This document shows, one piece after another, positions 4,600 to 10,744 of a stretch of 64,000 nucleotides of DNA. A program made the translations under genes and the position numbers. Every line of letters starts with the position of its first letter. Position 1 is the first letter of the stretch. The stretch covers positions 1-64,000 of the forward strand of contig NZ_JAIMIA010000003.1 of NCBI RefSeq assembly GCF_019966495.1, in the 5' to 3' direction. This stretch comes from Tateyamaria pelophila (GTDB lineage Bacteria > Pseudomonadota > Alphaproteobacteria > Rhodobacterales > Rhodobacteraceae). Below the pieces are notes generated by a model. That model searched no databases. It saw only the letters and a list, made by a program, of their open reading frames with translations, and had not been told where the DNA came from.

Positions 4600-4962
4600 T
4601 CAGCCGTTTGCTTCGCGGATCTTTTCAGCGGCGTCCTTGTCGTAAGTGACACCGTTTTCTTCAAAGAGTGTGTCCAATTCACCCGAAAGCGTCATTTCGG
4701 TGATGATATCGCAGCCTCCGACGAACTCGCCTTTGACGTAAAGCTGTGGGATCGTGGGCCAGTCAGAGAATTCCTTGATCCCGGCCCGGACTTCTTCGTC
4801 GGCCAGCACATTCACATCGGCAAAATCGACGGCCATGTAGTTCAGCACGCCAGCCACCCGGCTGGAGAACCCGCATTGCGGCATGGACTTGGTGCCCTTC
4901 ATGAACAGAACCACATCGTTGGAGGTGATGGTTTCGGTGATACGTGCGTTTGCATCGGTCAT
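4600..4962 (-). CDS. grxD: Monothiol glutaredoxin, Grx4 type
   Basis: A 120-residue monothiol glutaredoxin with active-site CGFS at residues 30-33 in the context [12 protein letters not shown], a [17 protein letters not shown] cis-Pro/glutathione-binding segment, and an acidic C-terminus. Such proteins bind a bridging [2Fe-2S] cluster with glutathione and exchange it with BolA-type partners. The ATG at 4962 is chosen because it gives the canonical N-terminus and has AGGAAAG upstream; a start at 5007 would add 15 atypical residues. It is the last gene of a tight bolA-orf51-orf20-grxD unit. Confidence 0.93.
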
Positions 4963-4963
4963 G

Positions 4964-5026
4964 TCAGCTGTCTTTCCTGATAAAGGCGCCGTGATAGCGC
5001 GCGGCATGGGTTTCGTGTTCGGTCAT
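4964..5026 (-). CDS. 20-residue microORF between orf51 and grxD
   Basis: An ATG overlaps the orf51 stop (ATGA), and the frame ends in TGA one base before the grxD ATG. The predicted peptide [20 protein letters not shown] is basic and histidine-rich. It could be a genuine microprotein, or a device that passes ribosomes from orf51 to grxD. Nothing outside its exact junctions supports expression. Confidence 0.35.
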
Positions 5027-5178
5027 CGGGTCTGGGTGTCGGAGCGCTCCCAGACCGATCCGTTGAGTTGTGTCTGTTTGATATGGTTTCGTTCAAACGC
5101 GTCCTTCCGCAGCGCCGCCAATGCGTGCTGCGTGCCATTGTGAAACGGGTCGGTGTTGATATGTGAATTGACGTGCAT
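5023..5178 (-). CDS. Small 51-residue protein between bolA and grxD
   Basis: The ATG overlaps the bolA stop codon (TGATG). The 51-residue product starts MHVNSHINTDPFHNGTQHAL, is hydrophilic, contains a predicted amphipathic helix (HALAALRKDAFERNHIK) and ends in [11 protein letters not shown]. It has no cysteine, signal peptide or membrane segment. Codon use resembles the neighbours, and the frame exactly fills the space between bolA and the next microORF, which argues that it is real. BolA and monothiol glutaredoxins form mixed [2Fe-2S] complexes, so a role near that complex is a positional inference. I do not recognise the family. Confidence 0.65.
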   Translation of the reverse strand: MHVNSHINTDPFHNGTQHALAALRKDAFERNHIKQTQLNGSVWERSDTQTR

Positions 5179-5417
5179 CAGGGGGCTTTCGTGGTCAGAG
5201 CCAGTGCGTGCAACTCCCCGTGGCTGCCGTCCATCTTGCCCTTGAGCGCCTTGGTTACGGCACGGTGCTGTTGCACTCGGTTCATGCCTGCAAAGGACGC
5301 GTCGATAACCTCGGCGGCATAGTGATTTCCATCACCGGCGAGGTCAGTGATCGTAATCTTGGCGGCGGGGAAGCTTTCGCGGATCAACTCTTCGATCTCT
5401 TGGGCTTGCATTGGCAT
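5178..5417 (-). CDS. bolA: BolA family protein
   Basis: A 79-residue BolA-fold protein: N-terminal helix AQEIEELIRESFPAAKITITD, GDGNHYAAEVIDASF, then the signature MNRVQQHRAVTKALKGKMDG and a C-terminal HALALTTKAP. The conserved histidine of the RxxxHR-like segment (QHR) can ligate a [2Fe-2S] cluster shared with a CGFS glutaredoxin, and grxD is encoded in the same unit. The start at 5417 is chosen for its GGAGAG ribosome-binding sequence; a longer open frame to 5600 has no family-like sequence. Confidence 0.92.
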   Translation of the reverse strand: MPMQAQEIEELIRESFPAAKITITDLAGDGNHYAAEVIDASFAGMNRVQQHRAVTKALKGKMDGSHGELHALALTTKAP

Positions 5418-5683: not shown

Positions 5684-6649
5684 ATGAGCATGGAAACAGC
5701 ACCCGAACAGGCCCTTGCGTGGCATCAGGCGGGCATCGGCGCGGCCCTTGCCACTGTGATCGAAACCTGGGGCAGCGCGCCGCGTCGTGCAGGGGCTCAA
5801 CTTGTCGTGTCGGGCACTGGCGAGATGATGGGATCGGTGTCCGGCGGCTGCGTCGAGGGCGCTGTCGTTGTCGAAGCGATGGACGCTTTGGCAGACGGAC
5901 AGCCCCGTCTGTTGGAATACGGGATCAGTGATGGCGACGCCTTTGCCGTCGGCCTGGCCTGTGGTGGCACCATCCGCATTCTGGTGGAACCCGTTGGTGC
6001 AGCCATGCCTGTGGAGATGTTGAAGGCTTTGGTCAGCGCGCGGGCCGCGCGCCAAAGGATGGCTTATGTGGTTGATCTGGAGGATTGGACCCGGCGTCTG
6101 GACGACAGCGGGTTTGCCGCGCGCTTCGCCAATGATCGTACCGGTGTCGAACCCGATGGCCAGACCTTTGTCACCATCCACAATCCCCCTCTGCGGCTTG
6201 CCATCGTCGGGGCCGTGCATATTGCACAGGCCCTCGTGCCCATGGCGCGGGTTGCGGGCTATGACCCGGTGGTCATCGACCCGCGCGGTGCGTTCGGGTC
6301 CGAAGCGCGGTTCCCCGGCGAACGGGTGATCAATGACTGGCCGGACGATGCTTTGAGAGAGGTTGGTCTGGATGCCCGCACGGCGCTTGTTTTGCTGACC
6401 CATGACCCCAAGCTGGATGACCCGGCCTTGCACATCGCTCTGAAATCAGAGGTCTTTTACATCGGTGCGCTCGGCTCGACCCGCACCCATGCGAAACGGG
6501 TGGAGCGATTGACCGAGGCCGGATTTTCCGAGGCCGATATTGCGCGCATCAAAGGCCCGGTGGGACTTGATATCGGGGCGGCCAGCCCGGCAGAGATCGC
6601 CGTGTCGATCCTGGGGCAGATGGTGCAGACCCTGAGGCGCGGCGCGTGA
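5684..6649 (+). CDS. XdhC/CoxI family molybdoenzyme maturation protein
   Basis: A 321-residue XdhC/CoxI-family protein. The N-terminal domain carries RAGAQLVVSGTGEMMGSVSGGCVEGAVVVEA (described by its SGGCVE core), and the C-terminal half is a Rossmann-like domain (LAIVGAVHIAQAL, then VLLTHDPKLDDPAL and IGALGSTRTHAKR). XdhC proteins bind molybdenum cofactor and help sulfurate or insert it into xanthine dehydrogenase-family enzymes. The gene overlaps the following molybdopterin-binding gene by 4 bases, and coxSLM follow, so CoxL is the probable client. Confidence 0.88.
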   Translation: MSMETAPEQALAWHQAGIGAALATVIETWGSAPRRAGAQLVVSGTGEMMGSVSGGCVEGAVVVEAMDALADGQPRLLEYGISDGDAFAVGLACGGTIRILVEPVGAAMPVEMLKALVSARAARQRMAYVVDLEDWTRRLDDSGFAARFANDRTGVEPDGQTFVTIHNPPLRLAIVGAVHIAQALVPMARVAGYDPVVIDPRGAFGSEARFPGERVINDWPDDALREVGLDARTALVLLTHDPKLDDPALHIALKSEVFYIGALGSTRTHAKRVERLTEAGFSEADIARIKGPVGLDIGAASPAEIAVSILGQMVQTLRRGA

Positions 6650-7638
6650 AGTTCGGACCCGTTACAGCGCAAGACGCCATCGGCGCTGTTCTCGCCCATT
6701 CCATGACGGGTACAAAGGGACGCATTGCCAAAGGCACGATGCTGGAGCCCGCCCATGTGGCGCAATTGCAGGCGAGCGGGCATGAAAGCCTTGTGGTCGC
6801 GCGGCTTGAGCCGGGCGATGTGGAGGAAAACGCCGCCGCCACGCGCCTTGCGCACGCCATTGCCAATGATCCGGATGCGCAGGGTTTGCGGATTGCGCAG
6901 GCCGGGGCAGGGCGGGTGAATCTTTATGCGGTGGGACCGGGCGTCGTGCGCATCGACGAGCGGGCCATTCACGCAGTCAATGCGGTTGATCCGATGATCA
7001 CTATTGCTACCGTGCCGCCATTTCACAGGGTGGAAGACGGAACGATGATCGCGACGATCAAGATCATTGCCTATGCGGTATCAGAAGCGGCACTTGCCGA
7101 TGCGTGCGGCGTCGGTATCGGCGCGCTGGATGTGGCCGCCCCGACCTACGCCACGGCAACCCTGATCGAGACCGTGGTGGGCGAGGATCCGCCCGCGGCC
7201 AAGGGCCGGGCGGCGCTGACCGGCCGCCTGGATCGGCTGGGCCTGACGCTCAGCCCGCGTATTATGGTGGATCACGTGGCCGAACCGTTGGCGCAGGCGC
7301 TGATTGTCGCGCCCGGCGACGTGATCTTTGTGTTGACCGCTTCGGCCACGTCCGACCCATATGATGTGGGGCCGGAGGCGCTGCGTCAGGCGGGCGGTAC
7401 GGTCACGGCCTTCGGCATGCCGGTGGATCCGGGCAACCTTTTGTTCCTGGGCTGGCTGGGGGAAAAGCCGGTGATCGGCTTGCCGGGCTGTGCCCGCTCG
7501 CCCGCACTCAACGGGGCGGATTGGGTGATGGAGCGGATCATTTGCGGGCAGCGTCTGACGCAGGCGAGCATTTCTGCAATGGGGGTCGGTGGTTTGCTCA
7601 AGGAAATTCCGACCCGGCCGCGCCCGCGCGCGTCCTAG
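6646..7638 (+). CDS. MoeA/CinA-like molybdopterin-binding protein
   Basis: A 330-residue protein with GTG start overlapping the xdhC stop (GTGA). The N-terminal half resembles the MoeA-like region (AHSMTGTKGRIAKGTML, then a domain with AVNAVDPMITIATVPPF). The C-terminal half has the MoCF/MogA-like molybdopterin-binding pattern: DVIFVLTASATSDPYDVGPEAL, then GMPVDPGNLLFLGWLGEKPVIGLPGCARSPALNG. In related operons this domain may be fused to a MobA-like nucleotidyltransferase; here only the binding part is present. It probably handles Mo-cofactor for the CoxL subunit encoded downstream. Confidence 0.8.
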   Translation: MKFGPVTAQDAIGAVLAHSMTGTKGRIAKGTMLEPAHVAQLQASGHESLVVARLEPGDVEENAAATRLAHAIANDPDAQGLRIAQAGAGRVNLYAVGPGVVRIDERAIHAVNAVDPMITIATVPPFHRVEDGTMIATIKIIAYAVSEAALADACGVGIGALDVAAPTYATATLIETVVGEDPPAAKGRAALTGRLDRLGLTLSPRIMVDHVAEPLAQALIVAPGDVIFVLTASATSDPYDVGPEALRQAGGTVTAFGMPVDPGNLLFLGWLGEKPVIGLPGCARSPALNGADWVMERIICGQRLTQASISAMGVGGLLKEIPTRPRPRAS

Positions 7639-7770: not shown

Positions 7771-8256
7771 ATGGCACAGGTCTCAATGACTGTGAACGGA
7801 AAGACTGCGTCTGGCGAAGTGGAAGGGCGCACGTTGTTGTCGTCGTTCCTGCGCGACACGCTCAAACTGACAGGAACCCATGTCGGGTGCGACACGTCTC
7901 AATGCGGCGCCTGCGTGGTGCATGTGGATGGGGTCGCGGTGAAATCCTGCACAATGCTGGCGGCAGAAGCCGATGGGGCCGATGTGGCGACCATCGAGGG
8001 TCAGGCGAATGCGGACGGGTCGCTCAACGTGATCCAGCAGGCGTTTCAGGACCATCACGGACTTCAGTGCGGGTTCTGCACGCCGGGCATGGTGATGTCG
8101 GCGGCGGCTCTGCTCAAGGAAAACCCCAAGCCATCCGAAGGTGAGGTGCGGGCCTATCTCGAAGGCAATATCTGCCGCTGCACGGGCTACCACAATATCG
8201 TCAAGGCGATCATGGCGGCATCCGGACAGGATGTCAGCGCCATCGCGGCCGAGTAA
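7771..8256 (+). CDS. coxS: CO dehydrogenase-type small subunit, two [2Fe-2S] clusters
   Basis: A 161-residue CoxS-type subunit of the molybdenum hydroxylase family. The plant-type [2Fe-2S] motif [15 protein letters not shown] with a following C is in the N-terminal half, and the second cluster motif CGFCTPGMV...CRCTGYHNI is in the C-terminal half. It passes electrons from the Mo centre in CoxL to FAD in CoxM. A GGAGG-type site precedes the ATG. A G/C-rich hairpin repeat separates it from coxL. Confidence 0.93.
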
Positions 8257-8271
8257 GCACGTATTTGAACC

Positions 8272-8322
8272 GCCGGGGGGCCAGCCCCCCGGACCCCCCG
8301 GGATTTTTTCCAACAGAGAAAG
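8272..8322 (+). repeat. Dispersed G/C hairpin repeat, copy 1 (coxS-coxL)
   Basis: CCGGGGGGCCAGCCCCCCGG followed by ACCCCCCGGGATTTTTTCC and a purine-rich AACAGAGAAAGAGG tail. The first part forms a strong hairpin; the second C-run can compete for the G-run. Copies 2-4 lie at 10755, 29721 and 54136. Confidence 0.75.
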
Positions 8323-8383
8323 AGGACCGGGACATCTGATTTGGCGGAGCAGATCTCTGCCGTCACATTCCGGGAGGACTAAA

Positions 8384-10744
8384 ATGCCAAAAGACGGAGG
8401 CATCGGCGCCAGCAGCAAACGGCGCGAGGATGTACGGTTTCTGACAGGGGTCGGAAATTATACAGACGACATCAATATGCATGGGCAAGCCCATGTGTTT
8501 TTCCTGCGCTCTGATGTGGCGCACGGAACCCTGACAACGGTGGATACCAGTGCGGCGGCAGATATGCCGGGGGTGGTGCAAATCTTTACCGGTGCGGATT
8601 TCGAGGCTGTGGGCGGGATGCCCTGCGGCTGGCAGGTCACGGACAAGCATGGCGAAGTGATGCAGGAGCCCCGCCACCCTGTGCTGGCCCATGGCAAGGT
8701 GCGCCATGTCGGCGAACCCATTGCAGCGGTCGTGGCCGAAACGCTGGAACAGGCCCGCGATGCGGCGGAGGCCATCGTGGTCGATATTGCCGAATTGCCC
8801 GCTGTGATGGATATGAAGGCGGCCGTGGCAGAGGGGGCGCCCAAGGTCCACGACGATCTGACCAGCAACCTGTGCTATGACTGGGGATTTGTCGAGGAAA
8901 ACAAGGACGCGGTGAACAAGGCTTTTGAGGAGGCCGCGCATGTGACCACACTGGAGCTGGTCAACAACCGTCTTGTGGCCAACCCGATGGAGCCCCGGGT
9001 CGCCGTTGGAGATTATTCCCGTGGCACGGATGAGCACACGCTGTTCACCACGTCGCAGAACCCCCACGTGATCCGACTGCTGATGGGGGCCTTTGTTCTT
9101 GGCATTCCGGAGCACAAGCTGCGCGTCGTGTCGCCGGACGTCGGTGGCGGGTTCGGCACCAAGATCTTCCACTATCAGGAAGAGGCGTTCTGCACCTTTG
9201 CCGCCAAGGCCTGTAACCGGCCCGTCAAGTGGACATCGTCGCGGACCGAAGCGTTTATGTCGGACGCCCACGGACGCGATCACGTGACCAAGATCGAGCT
9301 GGCGCTGGACGCGGACAACAACTTTACTGCGTTGCGTACGGATACCTATGCCAATATGGGCGCGTATCTGTCGACCTTTGCGCCGTCGGTCCCAACCTGG
9401 CTGCATGGCACGCTGATGGCGGGCAATTACAAGACCCCGCTGATCTATGTGAACGTGAAGGCCGTCTTTACCAATACAGTGCCGGTCGATGCCTATCGCG
9501 GGGCGGGCCGCCCCGAGGCGACCTTCCAGTTGGAGCGTGTCGTGGACAAGGCCGCGCGCGAGTTGGGCGTTGATCCGATTGCCCTGCGACGTCAGAACTT
9601 TATCACAGAGTTCCCCTATGCCACGCCCGTGGCGGTGGAATATGACACCGGTGATTATCACGCGACCATGGACAAGCTCGAAGAGATGATTGACCTGCCC
9701 GGATTTGCGGCGCGCCGCAAGGCTTCCGAGGCCAAGGGTAAGCTGCGCGGTCTGGGCGTGAACTGTTATATCGAGGCTTGCGGCATCGCGCCGTCGAACC
9801 TGGTGGGCCAGTTGGGCGCGCGTGCGGGGCTGTATGAAAGTGCCACAGTGCGGGTGAATGCCACCGGCGGTCTGGTTGTGATGACCGGCTCGCACAGCCA
9901 CGGACAGGGGCACGAGACGTCCTTTGCCCAAGTGGTGGCCGAAATGATCGGCATTGACGAATCGATGATCGAGATCGTGCACGGGGATACGTCCAAAGTA
10001 CCGATGGGCATGGGCACCTATGGCTCGCGCTCGATTGCAGTCGGTGGCTCGGCCATGGTGCGGGCGACCGAGAAGATCATCAACAAGGCCAAGAAGATCG
10101 CGTCTCATCTGCTCGAAGCCTCCGAAAGCGACATCGAACTGAAGGACGGTGCGTTCTCTGTCGCGGGCACGGACAAGTCCGTCGCCTGGGGCGATGTGAC
10201 TTTGGCCGCTTACGTGCCGCACAACTATCCGCTGGAGGACATTGAGCCGGGTCTGGAGGAAACGGCGTTTTATGACCCGTCGAACTTCACCTATCCGTCC
10301 GGGGCCTATGCCTGTGAAGTTGAAGTGGATCCGGAGACCGGCAAGGTCACGATCGAAAGCTTTGCCGCTGCGGATGATTTTGGCAACATCATCAATCCGA
10401 TGATCGTCACCGGTCAGGTCCATGGAGGGATTGCGCAAGGGATCGGGCAGGCGTTGTTGGAGAACTGTGCCTATGACGAGAACGGCCAGTTGCTGAGCGC
10501 GTCCTATATGGATTACGCGATGCCGCGGGCGGACGATCTGCCGATGTTCGATGTGGATCATTCCTGCCAGACGCCCTGTACCCACAACCCGCTGGGTGTG
10601 AAGGGCTGCGGCGAAGCGGGGGCGATCGGATCGCCTCCGGCGGTGGTTAATGCGGTTGTGGATGCGCTGCGTTCTGCGGGTAAGGAAGTCACCCATATCG
10701 ATATGCCGCTGTCGCCGGACCGTGTCTGGGCAGCGATGCAATAA
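8384..10744 (+). CDS. coxL: Form II CO dehydrogenase-like large (Mo) subunit
   Basis: A 786-residue xanthine oxidase-family molybdopterin subunit. The active-site loop AYRGAGR (residues 370-376) is the form II signature; true form I CO dehydrogenases carry AYXCSFR. Other family landmarks: GVGNYTDDI near the N-terminus, VSPDVGGGFGTKIF, and GVKGCGEAGAIGSPPAVVNAV near the end with the conserved GEAG. Form II enzymes often have an uncertain physiological substrate (weak CO oxidation or other aldehyde/aromatic hydroxylation). The ATG at 8384 has GGGAGG upstream; an in-frame start at 8141 would overlap coxS and add unrelated sequence. Order S-L-M is the form II arrangement. Confidence 0.9.
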   Translation: MPKDGGIGASSKRREDVRFLTGVGNYTDDINMHGQAHVFFLRSDVAHGTLTTVDTSAAADMPGVVQIFTGADFEAVGGMPCGWQVTDKHGEVMQEPRHPVLAHGKVRHVGEPIAAVVAETLEQARDAAEAIVVDIAELPAVMDMKAAVAEGAPKVHDDLTSNLCYDWGFVEENKDAVNKAFEEAAHVTTLELVNNRLVANPMEPRVAVGDYSRGTDEHTLFTTSQNPHVIRLLMGAFVLGIPEHKLRVVSPDVGGGFGTKIFHYQEEAFCTFAAKACNRPVKWTSSRTEAFMSDAHGRDHVTKIELALDADNNFTALRTDTYANMGAYLSTFAPSVPTWLHGTLMAGNYKTPLIYVNVKAVFTNTVPVDAYRGAGRPEATFQLERVVDKAARELGVDPIALRRQNFITEFPYATPVAVEYDTGDYHATMDKLEEMIDLPGFAARRKASEAKGKLRGLGVNCYIEACGIAPSNLVGQLGARAGLYESATVRVNATGGLVVMTGSHSHGQGHETSFAQVVAEMIGIDESMIEIVHGDTSKVPMGMGTYGSRSIAVGGSAMVRATEKIINKAKKIASHLLEASESDIELKDGAFSVAGTDKSVAWGDVTLAAYVPHNYPLEDIEPGLEETAFYDPSNFTYPSGAYACEVEVDPETGKVTIESFAAADDFGNIINPMIVTGQVHGGIAQGIGQALLENCAYDENGQLLSASYMDYAMPRADDLPMFDVDHSCQTPCTHNPLGVKGCGEAGAIGSPPAVVNAVVDALRSAGKEVTHIDMPLSPDRVWAAMQ

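Follow-up and report, generated by a model that had tools for sequence, protein, structure and literature searches.

A probable pseudogene between bolA and grxD of Tateyamaria pelophila and its intact counterparts in Rhodobacteraceae

Introduction

Is the short stretch between bolA and grxD of Tateyamaria pelophila occupied by genes of its own? The question is raised by two tiny open frames, orf51 and orf20, that lie between the genes of a BolA-family protein and a CGFS monothiol glutaredoxin in a 64,000-nucleotide stretch of DNA, the whole of which is referred to as the window. The original prediction took the two frames for separate microgenes and considered the 51-residue product of orf51 as a possible third component of the complex formed by the flanking proteins. 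The partnership of BolA with monothiol glutaredoxins in [2Fe-2S] complexes, on which that prediction drew, agrees with the portions of the literature source covered here (PMC10051749).

Results

Layout of the locus

The frames follow one another on the minus strand in the order bolA, orf51, orf20 and grxD (Table 1). The coordinates and junctions of the two small frames proved to be exact as predicted: the ATG of orf51 overlaps the bolA TGA as TGATG, orf51 and orf20 overlap as ATGA, and a single base, C, stands between the orf20 stop and the grxD start (TGA-C-ATG). The stretch between bolA and grxD measures 215 nt, or 218 nt with the bolA stop counted, and orf51 is present once in its own genome. 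Open frames of at least 20 aa overlapping the first 9 kb of the window number 145, and a 59-aa frame in the third register (4959-5138, minus strand) overlaps orf51, orf20 and the grxD start and is longer than orf51, so that the length of an open frame means little here. A purine run resembling AGGAAAG stands at the same place upstream of grxD in the relatives, as read from the DNA alignment.

The plus strand beyond bolA carries a divergent XdhC/CoxI-family gene (5684-6646), a 330-aa frame (6646-7635) for which Pfam has no match at E 0.01, and the large subunit of a molybdopterin-binding dehydrogenase (8141-10741).

Table 1. Features of the bolA-grxD locus in the window; type A denotes the intact gene of the genus described in the text.
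Feature	Position	Strand	Basis
bolA (BolA family, 79 aa)	5178..5417	-	Pfam PF01722, 2.4e-12
orf51, probable front part of decayed type A gene	5023..5178	-	DNA alignment with 18 intact same-genus copies, and frames
Probable deletion scar, about 90 nt, in frame	5106..5110	-	90 gap columns against L015; exact breakpoint ambiguous
Frame-changing indel, just before PMPEDET motif	5027..5035	-	Alignment places 4 nt missing
orf20, probable tail of decayed type A gene	4964..5026	-	Matches at E 0.0017, 1.2e-6 and 3.5e-17
AGGAAAG, likely grxD ribosome-binding site, within orf20	4972..4978	-	Read from sequence; function inferred
grxD (CGFS monothiol glutaredoxin, 120 aa)	4600..4962	-	TIGR00365 Grx4 family, 6e-44

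An intact gene in the genus

The grxD search yielded 110 loci (30 plus 80 named ones, some genomes being in both sets), and a bolA match was found upstream of grxD in all 110, in one case truncated by a contig end (L072). The genus set comprised 20 genomes including that of the window, and, counted with the bolA stop, the gap between the two genes measures 218 nt in the window, 247 nt in L020 and 303-321 nt in the other 18 members. In 18 of the 19 other members one open frame of roughly 100 codons, designated type A, occupies the gap and carries the tail motif PMPEDETYA or AMPEDETYA; the exception, L020, carries another kind of frame, type B, instead. In eight of the 18 intact type A copies an in-frame ATG overlaps the bolA stop as TGATG, and the remaining copies start within a few bases of that stop.

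The intact type A gene is under strong purifying selection: a codon model fitted to the 18 copies on the bolA+grxD tree gave an omega of 0.178, and an omega of 1 was worse by 2dlnL 495. The expectation of a conserved small protein at this site was hence borne out by the relatives, whose intact gene lies between bolA and grxD under such selection, and failed for orf51 itself. The window copy resembles the intact ones in its place, in a stop junction that it shares with most of them and in the tail motif MPEDETYAARYH; unlike them, it is devoid of a core of about 30 codons and runs out of frame before the tail.

Within the same genus, L020/L044 (Tateyamaria omphalii) possesses an intact type B gene of 81 aa with a membrane helix and a DPQDYAKTFIPKDK tail, which amounts to a swap within the genus.

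Decay of the window copy

Alignment of the window with the 18 intact gaps located two lesions, namely an in-frame gap of about 90 nt that removes the VPLGMEATDL...VNR core and, in the same 19-sequence DNA alignment, a gap of 4 nt just 5' of the PMPEDET motif that changes the frame. orf51 and orf20 lie in different frames; the "start" ATG of orf20 is an internal Met of the conserved PMPEDETYAARYH motif, and orf20 holds the window counterpart of the conserved tail motif MPEDETYAARYHRA. Similarity to the type A tail extends upstream of that ATG to about 5047, and a search of the own genome with the A2 profile matched 5047-4970 (E 0.0017); this remnant tail is the sole match at E <= 10, and no second intact type A copy was found in the genome. 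When the genus HMM was run against the whole window, the tail piece (frame 5092-4967) scored E 1.2e-6 and the next best match 0.19.

At the DNA level, a profile built from the 18 intact gaps matched positions 5109-4964, across the orf51/orf20 junction, with an E of 3.5e-17, and since the match spans the junction, the two frames are one ancestral gene: what had been predicted to be two genes are pieces of a single decayed one. The front portion, 5178-5110, is supported more weakly: for the 154 nt that precede the tail motif, 3 of 300 dinucleotide shuffles gave a mean alignment score as high as the observed one, and orf51 alone gave an E of 9.8 against the type A protein HMM. A residue was counted as near-invariant when at least 17 of the 18 intact copies share it. 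The retained blocks contain 22 such positions, 8 of which are changed in the window, and 10 more lie outside these blocks, where they are deleted or unalignable. The relatives show no replacement in 15 copies, one in two copies and four in L028, counts that are low partly by construction as the same 18 copies define near-invariance.

As a protein, orf51 gave a best non-self match of E 0.24 in a six-frame search of 100 relatives, and none of the 12 weak matches, spread over 11 genomes, lies at grxD by its coordinates. Matches across the 100 relatives were at chance level and orf51 was rejected as a conserved protein; a DUF4258 assignment was likewise discarded (E 0.093), its 13.5 bits falling short of the cut-off of 25. 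Lack of amino-acid conservation of orf51 where bolA-grxD is retained had been named in advance as the refuting outcome, and the idea of two microgenes fails on it; orf20 too is not a separately conserved frame but a tail fragment.

Relaxed selection on the window branch

The codon test, which rests on 41 window codons aligned by anchors, fitted better with an omega of its own for the window branch than with the background omega (2dlnL 19.3), and an omega of 1 on this branch was not rejected (2dlnL 1.6); the free estimate ran towards the upper bound (25 and 54 in two runs) and is to be read only as "not below 1". The comparison of synonymous and nonsynonymous changes, named as a check when the frames were first noticed, thereby spoke against them, with omega = 1 fitting the window copy and the background value being rejected. 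When the 18 other branches were tested in turn, 2dlnL was at most 3.03, and that towards stronger constraint, and relaxed selection is therefore confined to the window branch among the 19 tested. On that branch, bolA and grxD are both still constrained, with omega values of 0.018 and 0.028 respectively.

Reading of the window copy

In view of its homology to type A, its broken frame, the relaxed selection, the 8 replaced residues out of 22 and the lack of another genomic copy, we are highly confident that the bolA-grxD stretch of the window is a pseudogene, the shrunken and frame-broken remnant of a single type A gene of about 100 codons. About 30 codons were lost in frame, the frame-changing indel near the 3' end having arisen before or after, and the apparent coupled microgenes are the two frames left behind by decay. 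Precisely overlapping starts and stops may be a residue of gene decay and are not in themselves a sign of translational coupling. The remnant probably persists as carrier of the likely grxD ribosome-binding site and probably also keeps the bolA-grxD messenger together.

It is improbable, though it would not conflict with a pseudogene, that the remnant yields no useful protein and is kept as a translational relay leading from bolA to orf51 and, through an ATGA restart, to grxD. The TGATG overlap and the one-base spacing to grxD would suit such a relay, but TGATG starts and TGA-C-ATG spacing are also found in the intact relatives; the ATGA stop arose by a change beside the internal ATG, where relatives have ATGCC, but the internal motif Met plus one new stop codon, a single chance substitution, would suffice for it; and the purine-rich site before grxD is kept, whereas 24 of the 60 sampled genomes described below have a gap of at most 115 nt with no gene there.

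Very unlikely is a shortened gene of about 71 codons that still works, with only the 90-nt deletion real and the frame break a sequencing or assembly error. The deletion is indeed in frame, a single indel would account for the change of frame, and the frameshift is known from one assembly of 280 contigs and could in principle be an assembly error. The deletion itself and the replaced conserved residues could hardly be such errors, however, as the near-invariant positions replaced (8 of 22) lie outside the deletion and sequencing error does not produce replacements of this kind; omega = 1 not being rejected also stands against a working gene. Scarcely credible, in spite of the location between known partners and the exact junctions, is the notion that orf51 and orf20 each encode a genuine conserved microprotein of its own and that one of the two belongs to the BolA-Grx complex as its third member, as orf51 is without conservation in 100 relatives, the relatives have one continuous gene and the window copy evolves neutrally.

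Survey of the gap across Rhodobacteraceae

The region upstream of grxD was surveyed in 60 Rhodobacteraceae genomes, a sample that leans to the more similar half and some of whose members are also in the named set. In all 60, bolA lies upstream of grxD, with a gap of at most 115 nt in 24 and of more than 115 nt in 36. Helix-bearing ORFs, defined as having at least 40 aa and a 19-residue stretch with a mean hydropathy of at least 1.6, and sought among the two longest sense ORFs, were present in 27 of the 36 longer gaps, as against 2 of 36 in an antisense control on the same gaps with all ORFs counted and 0.1 expected from base shuffles of the gaps. The ORF starts between -8 and +13 nt from the bolA stop in 24 of the 27 and ends no more than 31 nt from the grxD start, or just overlaps it, in 22. 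Every one of the 27 has a single hydrophobic stretch, and the flank after the helix is more positive than the flank before it in 22, less so in four and equal in one. According to the positive-inside rule, the more positive flank faces the cytosol; most of the helix-bearing ORFs are therefore predicted to have a cytosolic tail. Nine of the 36 gaps were devoid of a helix-bearing ORF, and two of these (L213, L214) hold type A without a helix, as in the genus of the window. For other families of the class, bolA was adjacent in 17 of 20 genomes, with gaps of 2-174 nt, while three showed no bolA; none of the 17 had an ORF of at least 40 aa in the gap.

Very short helix-bearing ORFs of 43-48 aa were seen in L205, L208, L210, L216 and L226, in gaps of 124-143 nt, with a pattern like TWPxxGAxALVxxIxYGALxPYxKxD; Pfam at E 0.01 matched neither that of L210 nor that of L226, and those of L205 and L208 matched the type B profile weakly (E 0.04). 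L212 and L118 possibly represent a further kind, of about 70-94 aa. Enemella evansiae is an actinobacterium, and a contig titled with this name (L093, JAFKDC010000021.1) has a grxD 85% identical to that of the window; it is probably mislabelled or contaminated.

Type A and type B families

In profile searches of 295 genomes of the family, which scored the best 16-18 candidates per genome and may have passed over distant members, type A was detected in 24 genomes (window remnant and weak matches included) and type B in 48, with never more than one match of either type per genome. Flanking by both bolA and grxD was observed for type B in all 30 loci kept, out of 48 matches, and for type A in 20 of the 24 loci kept, or in 19 of 20 when only matches at E <= 1e-3 are counted. 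The type A exceptions comprise three weak matches (E 0.003-0.007) and a good one that lies elsewhere, in L154 (E 5e-9), and a weak type B match, in G026 (E 0.00998), lies on a different contig from grxD. In 8 of 12 type B loci the stop codon and the grxD start share four bases, and in one more (L065) they share a single base.

Type B, for instance in L055, L081 and L044, is like type A in its bolA-grxD slot, N-terminal helix and short conserved C-terminal motif, here DPQEYAKRFxPK; unlike type A, it has a Gly-rich middle with a hairpin predicted at modest confidence. Strains with an intact copy include Sulfitobacter dubius DSM 16472 (L114) for type A and Roseobacter sp. GAI101 (L081) for type B. 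Homology between the two types is not claimed, hhalign having aligned 17 tail columns at a probability of 18% (E 0.0014). Types A and B stand side by side, in either order, in G278, G266 and G204 (the L103 genome), and are thus not strict alternatives. The type A core, as PPLGMEATDLDLVNRANRENERVE, recurs in a stray frame of 56 aa that occupies 1492-1662 on the minus strand of L154 (G329), away from bolA-grxD and near a 400-aa frame that resembles, by eye, a nucleotide-sugar epimerase; the core motif may be a module of its own.

Database comparisons assigned neither type to a described family. In Pfam, the best E for type A was 0.0053, in one of 23 members (a Stannin transmembrane helix, not convincing), that for type B was 0.078, and four other helix-bearing examples had no match at E <= 0.01; NCBIfam gave no match for four examples, and the best PDB match (E 0.011) was to a designed protein and is not meaningful. 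AlphaFold2 models had a pLDDT of 65 and a pTM of 0.26 for type A (N-terminal helix 2-26) and a pLDDT of 73 and a pTM of 0.35 for type B (N-terminal helix 3-28), with only the N-terminal helix reaching a pLDDT of about 90 or more in either. Cys is absent from the invariant and nearly invariant columns of both A2 and A3 (types A and B), and ligation of a cluster through Cys by these proteins is therefore unlikely. In a search for members outside Rhodobacteraceae that scored the best 16-19 candidates per genome, so that distant members may have been passed over, the matches listed at E <= 1e-4 comprised 0 of 289 genomes of the class for type A and 1 of 289 for type B, the latter itself belonging to the window's family.

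Discussion

The intact gene, rather than the window copy, is the part worth pursuing. It places an uncharacterised small protein between two well-known iron-sulfur partners in many Rhodobacteraceae, and this product may perhaps work with the BolA/glutaredoxin pair. Types A and B are genomically linked to both bolA and grxD. The intact gene gives rise to a small protein which, in several related genera, is predicted to comprise an N-terminal membrane helix and a cytosolic tail; a single membrane helix with such a tail is predicted for most candidates outside the genus of the window, whereas the relatives of the window's lineage have a helix-less version. A search of titles and abstract openings, with most subscription journals outside its scope, found no publication that deals with a small gene at this site.

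One account of the intact families, falling only a little short of an even chance, is that small genes unrelated to one another enter and leave a permissive spot that has nothing to do with BolA-Grx4. It would explain why at least two families share the slot with no detectable homology over most of their length, along with further helix-bearing types, and why presence is patchy, L020 having type B in place of type A and the window having lost type A; a good type A match is moreover found elsewhere, in L154. Against it, the loci kept place type B between bolA and grxD in 30 of 30 cases and type A in 20 of 24, type A is under strong purifying selection and all 27 helix-bearing ORFs have a single predicted helix.

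BolA and GrxD are described in Escherichia coli as cluster-containing heterodimers with physical links to each other (PMC10051749), and Grx4, BolA and IbaG have a part in the maturation of respiratory complexes I and II, an effect visible only with several genes mutated (PMC6558291), as stated in the portions of these sources covered here. The iron-sulfur heterodimer together with the role in complexes I and II makes a membrane tether reasonable, and the role that we favour for the intact protein, though at well below an even chance, would be to retain the BolA-Grx4 pair at the inner membrane or bring it there. Helix-less versions, patchy distribution, the lack of a conserved Cys and a possibly permissive site are points against it. 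About as probable is the broader proposal that several families fill one slot with a single-pass protein anchoring BolA-Grx4 near the respiratory complexes, the lineage of the window having lost the gene. Should the tether reading be true, that lineage would be a natural knock-out, and recruitment of BolA-Grx4 to the membrane would make it possible to study in bacteria how [2Fe-2S] clusters are guided to their membrane clients.

Overall, the locus compares with the known system in that both genes of the BolA-Grx4 pair are present in the window, adjacent and constrained. A membrane-anchored third component finds no mention in the covered portions of PMC10051749 and PMC6558291, and many Rhodobacteraceae differ from the BolA-Grx4 pair as known by carrying a gene between the two partners.
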